Source of the DNA: Gloeobacter violaceus PCC 7421
GTDB lineage: Bacteria; Cyanobacteriota; Cyanobacteriia; Gloeobacterales; Gloeobacteraceae
Assembly: GCF_000011385.1 (NCBI RefSeq)
Contig: NC_005125.1
Span: 434,001 to 498,000, forward strand
DNA: 64,000 nucleotides
Reading direction: 5' to 3'
The translations under genes and the position numbers were made by a program. Shown here piece after piece: positions 14,965 to 24,798 of this stretch (positions are counted from its first letter, which is position 1; each line of letters begins with the position of its first letter). The notes under the pieces are model-generated. The model ran no database searches, was not told the origin of the DNA, and saw only the letters and a list, made by a program, of their open reading frames with translations.

Positions 14965-17900
14965 TTACCAGGGCATACGGCCCAGGTAGTGGTGACCCGA
15001 GCGCTCGCGCTCGACTTCGAGGCGCTGGCGCAACAGGCCGTAGATTTCCTGGGCCAGCATTTCGAGATCCGCGTTTTCGCCTTCGCCCTCCTCCTCCGCT
15101 TCCTCCGGGTCACCCGGGGCGGCGGCAGCGGCAGCGGCGGCCCCCGCGGGCGGGGGGACATGGGCGGGAAGCTGTCCGCTCAGCAGCACCTGCTCCATCG
15201 AATCGCCCATGTAGCCGCTGTAGGTCGAGGCGGCCTCCGGCACTCCCCCACCGCCGCCGCCGCCACCGCCGCCGCCGCCACCGCCGCCGCCGCCACCGGT
15301 ACTGCTACTGCTGCCGGTGTCCGCGGGAAGGGTGGTGCCCAGGCCGATTTCGGCGGCTGAGACGGTGAGCAGTTCCTCGATGTCTGACCAGTTGTCGGGA
15401 ATCTGGTGGTCCCTACCGCCTAGGGCATCGGTGAGCGCACCGGAACCCGCAAACAGCAGCGGAGCAGAGGCCGCGCCGCTGAGGGCCGCCGCTTCCCCCG
15501 CCACGGTCGGCAGATCCGAGCCGCCGCCATCCTCTTCTTCTTCTTCTTCGTCCTCTTCCTCTGCGTTTTTGCGGGCCTCCAGCTGCAGCAGGTATTCCTG
15601 CAGGACGAGCGGTTCGACCTCCATCTCGTCCTCACCCGCGCCGGAGAAACCGTCCGGCTCCTGCTGGGCAAAATCGCTTTGCAAAGCGACATCGTCTGGA
15701 GGGACTTCCGGCTCTTCTTCCGCGTCTTCCTCCGGCTGTTGATCCGCCAACAGCTGGGCGGCAAAGAGCAGTGGCCCCTGCCCCAGGGTGCGCTCGGAAG
15801 CTATCGGCAATGTCGGTGCTTCGAGATCTGCTTCCGGCAGATCCGCGTCGAAGTCCTGCAGGTCGGCCACGGACGCCAGGGGAACGGCCGTCTCCAGTCC
15901 GAGCGCCGGCACCTCCGGCACCCCGAGCGGCTGCACGTCCATCCCGAGCGGTCGGGAGGTCGCCGTATCCGCAGCTGCAGACCGGCCCGCCGCCGACTCC
16001 AAGGGCAACGGTTCGGGAACGGTCGCATCCAGAGGCGTTAGAAGCGCTTCCAGTCCACCGTCCGCCTCGTCGAGCGGCCCCTCCGCCTGCTCGGCCAGGG
16101 CGTACAGGAGCGGTCCGTACTCCACCGGGTCGATCGCCTCGCTTCCGGCCGTTGCGAAAACGCCCGCCGCCACCCCCAGTAGAGTGAGAACACCCAGATC
16201 CTGAGCAACGGTCGGGGAGAAACCGTCCCCGGCGAGCGGACGCAGCACCGTCAAATCCTGGGCAACGCCCAGAGGTCCTTCGGCGGCGACAGGATCATCC
16301 TCCGGCGCCGGTTCATCCGTCCGCAGCGCCGGATCGAACGCCCCGTCCGCGTCAGGGATCTCCTGGGTGTCATCGATTGTCGGGCGGGTCGGCTCGATCT
16401 CGGTGGTTTCGCTTTGCTCATCCGGCAGCGCAAATGCGGGCGACGCCGACACTATCCCGTCCGCCTCCAGGGGCAGGGCCGCTTCGCTCAAAGAACGAAG
16501 CACCGTCAGATCTCGGGCGACACCCAGAGGCGATTCCGACCGGTCGTCGGCTGCTTCGCCGTCAACCGGTAGTGCTTCGAGCGCCGTCGGGTCGGGGGTG
16601 CTGCGATCTCCACTCCAGCCGGGCCAGATCTCCCGCTCGCTCAACGGGGGCAGGTCCGGCTCGACGGCCGGCACCAGATCTACCGGCGTCAAGTCCGCTT
16701 CGATGGCCGCCAAAGCCGGCAGCTCCGGTCCGTCGGGGAGGGTGGCCGCTAAATCGTCCTCGTCTTCGACAAGGGATCTTAGAACCGTCAGATCCTGGAC
16801 GACACTGGGGAGCAACAACGCTGCAGAGCTGCCCACGCCGAGGTAGTCGGTGCTGCCGAGCGGGTCGGACGACCCCAGATGCTGAGTTTGCAATCCTGGA
16901 AATGCACCGAGGTCGAACGCCGCCCCCAGCGGTTCAAGCGACCCTTCCGTCGCCGCTGCAAGCTCGTCAATCTCGAAGGTTTCTTCTCGGCCCGCCACAG
17001 CAGGTCCATCGGCAGACTCGGTTTCTTCCGCCTGCGACTCGCCGATGGGCAGCGTTTGCGCGTCTTGACGCCACTCCGGTTCCGCCGAAATTTCAGGCAG
17101 TTCGCCAGTCAATCCGGCCGGTTCGGCCGCATCCTCGCTCTGCACCGGCAGTTCCGCGACCGGTGGCGCTTCTGTGACCAACGGCGCTTCAAGGGATGGG
17201 GCTTCCTGGCCGGGGGACACCGCGGTCGGTGCAGGAGGCAAATCTTCCAGTCCCGCCTGCCCATCGCCGCGTTCCGGCAGCAGCAGCTCGGGGTACACCG
17301 TTTCGGGCGCGGTTTGGTGAATGGGTTCGGGGTGTTCGCCGGCGGTCCTGTCCTCAGGCAATTCTGCCTGGGGCAATGGTGCGGACGACTCAAAAGTTGG
17401 CTGGGAGACGGACAACGAAGGCTCGACACCCCTTGCAACCGCTGGCGGCAGCTCCTCGGTTGCAGGCGTTGCGGAGTCGCCGGGTTCAAGGGCGACCGCT
17501 TCGGCGGCGGCACTTTCCGTCGCCGCTGGAGCAGCGCTCCGATCGACAAAAGCCTCCTCCAGCGATAGCAGATCTTCCTCGGAAGCTCCTCCAACCGGTG
17601 CGTCCTGGGCAATAAGCAACTCCGGTGCAATCGAGCCGCCCTCCCCGAGCGGTTCCGGCGAGCTCAGCGGTTGCGCTTCGCTAAGCGGCTCCGGCTGGCC
17701 AAGCAGCTCCAACTCCCCGAGCGGCTCCGATACGGCGAGTGGCTCCAGCTCACCCAACGCTTCAGCCGGCAAGATCGATTCCGGCTCATCGGCACTTTGA
17801 CCGAGCGGCTCCGGCTGCTCAAGCAGCAACGTCCCGCTGTGCTCTGGCGGCGCCTCCTCGCCTGGGGGGTGCGGCGGGCCAAGCAGGTCTGCCGGTGTAT

Positions 17901-24798: not shown

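Follow-up and report, generated by a model that had tools for sequence, protein, structure and literature searches.

Known tape measures are helical, and the lumens of contractile injection systems (CISs) are negatively charged. Tape measures lie in the lumen as trimers or bundles, and their C-terminal helices meet the hub (PMC10966104, PMC10996793). In solved CISs the hub itself is closed by a second protein, Cis6, a trimer of which seals the cavity of the spike with a loop in the lumen; loss of Cis6 abolishes assembly (PMC8894136, PMC8894135), and the protein is needed in both AlgoCIS and MACs, while the width of the lumen is 3.6 nm (PMC8894135). Particles of the type IId CIS of S. coelicolor are identical in length, at 268 nm, and no tape-measure gene has been found for them (PMC12237407); Streptomyces IId clusters are reported to lack such a gene (PMC12237407, PMC10066040, PMC10286715). 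Two long CIS-associated proteins of Streptomyces, Tme and Sle1, have a relationship to tape measures, and Tme is ~70% disordered. Tme carries DUF4157 and a C-terminal nuclease, whereas Sle1 is coiled-coil and encoded upstream of the sheath, and neither a C-terminal hub helix nor a place in the hub slot has been described for either protein (PMC11126660, PMC13277306).

We analysed a 64,000-nucleotide stretch (the window) of a Gloeobacter genome that consists of a single contig of 4,659,019 bp (G000 in the comparisons below). A giant gene in this window is flanked by CIS genes, that for the tail tube on one side and those for the Cis7/Cis8 hub on the other (Table 1). Its frame comprises 3277 uninterrupted codons on the minus strand, from an ATG at 24798 to a stop that ends at 14965; a plus-strand reading of the same interval was ruled out by its many stops. 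The initial annotation of this DNA had described one unbroken frame of almost 10 kb, starting two bases past the stop of the tube gene and ending just before a gp53-like gene. We confirmed each of these points: there are zero internal stops, the tube gene stop is at 24801, and 33 bp separate the frame from the gp53-like gene, which starts at 14931.

Table 1. The giant gene, its parts and its neighbours (window coordinates)
Feature	Coordinates	Strand	Basis or closest relatives
VgrG/Cis8-like spike	12649..14322	-	Closest solved relative the S. coelicolor type IId CIS spike (9GTR), E 1e-44
Hub adaptor, Cis7-like, 'gp53-like' (PF19266 CIS_tube)	14365..14931	-	E 7e-17
Giant disordered Pro/Glu/Ala-rich acidic hub-slot protein, 3277 aa	14965..24798	-	Open frame, composition, disorder, conserved frame
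C-terminal helix, residues 3238-3267, LExLAxEIYxLLRQRLExERER	14998..15087	-	AlphaFold2, family alignments, distribution
Pre-tail motif WSDIEELL, residues 3137-3144 (W-S-x-I-x-x-L)	15367..15390	-	Conservation across loci, alignment
Disordered repeat region with 10 of 11 LE[DE]xF short motifs	17542..23892	-	Motif count
Near-identical internal repeats	17801..20956	-	D1 17801/19430/20657; D2 18844/20290; D3 19349/20444; D4 18233/20183
Conserved N-terminal module, residues 29-132, PLGQDI..PGY..PF; ..SLEEAM	24403..24714	-	Alignment to G003
Tail-tube protein (PF06841; Cis1/Cis5 type)	24801..25331	-	E 6.8e-35; PDB relatives Pvc5, Afp5, All3324
Small protein, 91 aa, overlapping the tube start	25331..25606	-	C-terminal helix homologous to the giant's tail
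Zinc-ribbon/FHA protein, same operon	25704..26339	-	Family search
Kinase-like/periplasmic-binding-like protein, same operon	26351..28525	-	Weak matches, near or below cut-offs

Four relatives of the same order whose locus is intact keep the frame open, as does a fifth whose locus is cut by a contig end, so that the disruption in close relatives that would have spoken against a real product is not seen; the frames in congeners encode 2500, 3239 and 2736 aa. Over well-aligned codons, comparison with the two closest congeners gave a dN/dS of 0.44-0.48 for the giant gene, and comparison of these congeners with each other gave 0.53; the tube, Cis7, Cis8 and small genes had values of 0.02-0.18. Random drift by substitution only, at 5-10%, would introduce at least 6-18 stops into the giant frame. 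Given that the frame is open in relatives, that dN/dS is ~0.5 and that drift would add stops, we conclude that the giant is a real gene and no chance frame. The gene is thus under constraint, though a loose one, as expected for a disordered chain.

The protein (337.8 kDa) contains 14.7% proline, 14.6% glutamate and 14.2% alanine, only two lysines and no cysteine, and has a net charge of -589, in agreement with its description in the initial annotation as acidic and Pro/Glu/Ala-rich. The predicted disorder and the short conserved helical tail described there were also recovered. Along the whole chain, 98% of 51-residue windows fell on the disordered side by TOP-IDP, and AlphaFold2, run on the last 678 aa with a shallow alignment, gave a mean pLDDT of 38.6 with 605 of the 678 residues below 50, low pLDDT being weak evidence of disorder only. 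With 20 relatives in the alignment, AlphaFold2 modelled the tail as a C-terminal helix with pLDDT block means of 78-96, a segment that the family alignments likewise single out; the last residues of the chain are ...GRMPW (at 14968). The near-identical repeats reported earlier resolve into four sets of 66-97% identity: 300 nt in three copies (66-83%), 160 nt in two (97%), 153 nt in two (97%) and 117 nt in two (88%). We counted 11 copies of the short motif LE[DE..][..][FM], the expectation from shuffled sequences being 0.44 (maximum 4, n=500). A poly-glycine run of at least 18 residues lies near the C-terminus (window 15244-15297) and is much shorter in close relatives.

Two parts of the giant align with the protein of a divergent Gloeobacter relative (G003), namely the N-terminal module (49% identity, E 2e-19) and the C-terminal ~180 residues (37% identity). 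The anchors that recur in cyanobacteria are an N-terminus of the PLG type, the W-S-x-I-x-x-L motif, which is conserved in 50 of 57 loci at 99-163 aa before the C-terminus, and the tail. The giant had no family match in Pfam or NCBIfam and the isolated tail none in PHROGs, and no paper describing the family was found among the open-licence papers searched. A profile of the tail identified 59 loci among one-genome-per-species GTDB contigs, all of them cyanobacterial. Among 386 cyanobacterial genomes, 27 had a tail match; we rejected four weak ones (G013, G103, G261 and G320; E 0.005-0.01), as the hub is missing from all four genomes; of the two weak-hit frames that we inspected, one (L043) is helicase-like and unrelated, and the other (L041) is short and adjoins a transposase-like frame. 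A second search, with the spike protein of the window as query, recovered exactly the same 23 of 386 genomes (Fisher P 3e-33, with the four spurious tail hits counted against the association). All 25 VgrG places listed have an adjoining tail, and this holds for the second hub loci of G032 and G133 as well. Since tail and hub type occupy identical sets of genomes, the giant family looks like an obligate part of the machine rather than an optional cargo.

Proteins in this slot range from 187 and 245 aa to 3279 aa, and nearly all complete copies have about 840-3280 aa. The slot between the tube gene and Cis7 is also filled in L038, L049, L053 and L139, and a Pseudanabaena plasmid encodes a 2531-aa version in the same place. 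In plasmid-borne IId loci of Streptomyces, a Pro-rich protein of 906-1381 aa with a homologous tail lies between DUF6760 and Cis5; its tail aligns with the cyanobacterial one at 87.7% probability (hhalign, E 3e-6), as compared with at most 2.5% for 30 column-shuffled controls. This Streptomyces type is present in four Streptomycetaceae loci, two others being unclear. Its members (e.g. WP_327341076.1) resemble the giant in being long and of low complexity and in lying beside Cis5 and hub genes, but they precede Cis5 rather than following the tube gene, and they are basic (net +16 to +63) where the giant is acidic, indicating that charge is not the conserved property. The view of the giant as unusual in the initial annotation holds only in part: at 3277 aa the Gloeobacter copy is the longest seen, with copies elsewhere reaching about 2500 aa, yet this slot is as a rule occupied by a long Pro-rich protein with such a tail. 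In Deinococcus, loci that have a related VgrG carry a different protein there; the candidate large counterpart was rejected as a kinase-FHA-Ig-like protein, ~1600 aa long and encoded just before Cis7 (L148:6358-11199 and L140:6393-11171). Two tail-like helices occur in the 187-aa slot protein of the second hub locus of G133 (L045:1045-1608), and G082 and G032 each have two tandem tails in one frame.

Like the Cis6, Afp6 and Alg6 plugs, the giant is encoded between a tube gene, here of the Cis1/Cis5 type, and Cis7, and ends in a predicted helix. Unlike the giant, the solved plug is small, and the Gloeobacter locus encodes a second tail-bearing protein. The tail of this 91-aa protein matches that of the giant at 93.7% probability (hhalign, E 1.8e-7), and the two flank the tube gene, so either could be the plug. 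Neither the tail, the family nor the small-protein profile matched any PDB chain, solved Cis6 included, at E<1; any homology to the plug therefore concerns position and general shape. By analogy with the Cis6 site, the C-terminal helix of the giant may dock in the cavity of the Cis8 spike.

The giant also shares features with the tape measures Afp14, diffocin TMP and A-1(L) gp13, in being long, in having a C-terminal helix beside hub genes and in occurring once per machine. It differs in being Pro-rich (14.7% proline) and predicted to be disordered rather than a helical or coiled-coil bundle. A phage tape-measure motif of the GYATGGxV..SDTVPAMLTPGEFVIN type is found in 47 of 57 cyanobacterial homologues, those of Nostocales and allies, and the three copies that were compared with PHROGs matched several of the tape-measure families there (best named match ~6e-5; 1e-5 to an unnamed family). 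Motif and family searches did not find it in the Gloeobacter copy. Its distance from the C-terminus is 266 +/- 12 aa while full protein length varies by +/- 152 aa, the hub end thus being fixed and the variation lying toward the other end. Inspection by eye of the three CIS loci in the Gloeobacter genome turned up no further candidate for a tape measure.

Cis6 plugs the hub, and tape measures meet it as three helices or a trimer; the simplest joint reading is a chain that is anchored at the hub and lies in the lumen. We therefore favour, with moderate confidence, the interpretation that the giant is an obligate part of type IId-like CISs, a hub-anchored disordered lumen chain that acts as tape measure and filler and sometimes as enzyme carrier. 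The C-terminal helix would anchor the protein at the hub, where a trimer would probably occupy that cavity of the Cis8 spike which faces the tube; the disordered chain would run up the lumen of the tube, where it could both measure and fill; and in some relatives an enzymatic domain would sit at the far, N-terminal end. Four elements of this scheme are inferred: that the protein forms a trimer, docks in the cavity of the spike, lies in the lumen and controls length. Support comes from the co-occurrence of tail and hub, the Cis6 slot, the tape-measure motif in homologues, the Streptomyces counterpart, the uniform IId particles for which no tape-measure gene has been found, the trimers or bundles that known tape measures form with C-terminal helices at the hub, the GHL10 domain of one relative (see below) and a permissive volume estimate, in which three copies at half density fill ~241 nm of a 3.6-nm lumen and one copy fills 80 nm. 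Against it we counted a negative indel test and a short copy in G004 (both below), the absence of the motif in Gloeobacter, the different slot protein of Deinococcus, the lack of a Cis6 match, the second tail-bearing protein, disorder where tape measures are helical, and an acidic chain in a negative lumen. A comparison of electrostatic complementarity through tube net charges was given little weight, since net charges say little without a structure of the lumen face. Since the tail helix accompanies every related hub found, the giant is probably a constant component of the needle interior, and may set the length of the needle. Of the roles proposed in the initial annotation, to coat, tether or fill the particle with the tail as docking part, filling with a docked tail is thus favoured by the 23/23 co-occurrence, the motif and the slot, while coating and external tethering gained no positive support.

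A more specific form of this interpretation, that the giant family is the missing ruler of type IId CISs, a disordered tape measure fused to a hub plug, is tentative and rather less likely than not. The family has the right gene place, is found with every related hub in the 386-genome sample and carries a tape-measure signature in many members. Conservation of length was not supported by a compensated-indel test of 17 pairs (observed 1.09, expected 1.0, P 0.65), and the G004 copy has 2500 aa, 777 fewer than the longest in a set of otherwise 3239-3277 aa, though its tube is 99.4% identical to that of the window; G004 is a draft assembly in which repeats may have collapsed. Near-zero net length change, spotted afterwards, was confined to two pairs of very long proteins (G000/G005 and L049/L050). 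If the family is the ruler, a helical rod would not be the only form that a tape measure can take, protein length should scale with particle length from cyanobacteria to Streptomyces, and unusually long particles are predicted for Gloeobacter. Type IId CISs are described as making particles of one length with no tape-measure gene (PMC12237407), and the family offers a one-gene test. The plug, the tape measure and tape-measure-related CIS effectors are already known; what is new is the pairing of a hub helix with disordered sequence that can reach 3277 residues.

A clearly less probable alternative to the favoured interpretation is that the giant is a lumen filler or cargo carrier without a ruler role, its tail docked in the spike and its chain lying in the tube and injected on firing, with particle length set by cap, sheath or tube counts. 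A relative of the same order (G001) has a 1874-aa version with an N-terminal GHL10 glycosidase-like domain (E 9e-15), and a pesticin-like lysozyme protein encoded close to it shares its Pro-rich linker but has no C-terminal tail (L013:11163-13394); TMPs, too, can carry peptidoglycan-hydrolase domains. The giant is without the eCIS_core (PF13699) domain of DUF4157 effectors, and no such effectors were found in three Gloeobacter genomes (G000, G003, G005) or the related G007, which makes the giant a candidate for the main cargo there; other hub-bearing cyanobacteria have 9 (G001), 2 (G133), 5 (G394) and 7 (G395). Members of the family may thus bear cargo or stand in for it, and the differences in protein length between close relatives suit a role other than that of a ruler. 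However, family searches found no enzymatic domain in the Gloeobacter copy, the strict 1:1 relationship with the hub exceeds what is expected of optional cargo, and homologues carry the tape-measure motif. As cargo, the giant would be a disordered polymer of ~340 kDa that leaves the machine on ejection, possibly in three copies, which would widen ideas of nanosyringe delivery.

We consider it unlikely that the role of the giant is confined to hub assembly through its C-terminal helix, together with the 91-aa paralogue, with the disordered part a meaningless extension that drifts through repeat expansion. The high dN/dS relative to neighbouring genes and the slot homologues of only 187 and 245 aa would fit such drift, but the chain is open and long in nearly all complete copies, and the conserved N-terminal module, the fixed spacing of the C-terminal motifs and the repeated LE[DE]xF argue for a function along the whole chain. 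Least probable is a hub-anchored coat, fibre or tether on the outside of the particle: chains that are long, acidic and Pro-rich can form brushes and the genes adjoin hub genes, but in solved CISs the protein of the hub slot is a plug that lies inside the particle (PMC8894136, PMC8894135), homologues carry the tape-measure motif, and no receptor-binding or membrane domain was found in the giant.

CIS genes of the Gloeobacter genome are scattered over at least three distant loci. The locus in the window holds the hub genes; the others, at C1:4297307-4302240 (L155) and C1:~1509000-1518000 (L154), comprise one with a sheath, three tubes, a cap-like gene and two chaperone-like genes, and one with gp25/baseplate genes. 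The zinc-ribbon/FHA and kinase-like genes upstream of the tube have a parallel in Brasilonema, where a kinase-FHA pair also precedes the locus. Two related small proteins adjoin sheath and tube genes elsewhere in the genome, and one of them weakly resembles phage tail assembly chaperones (PF10109, E 3e-4, under its cut-off).
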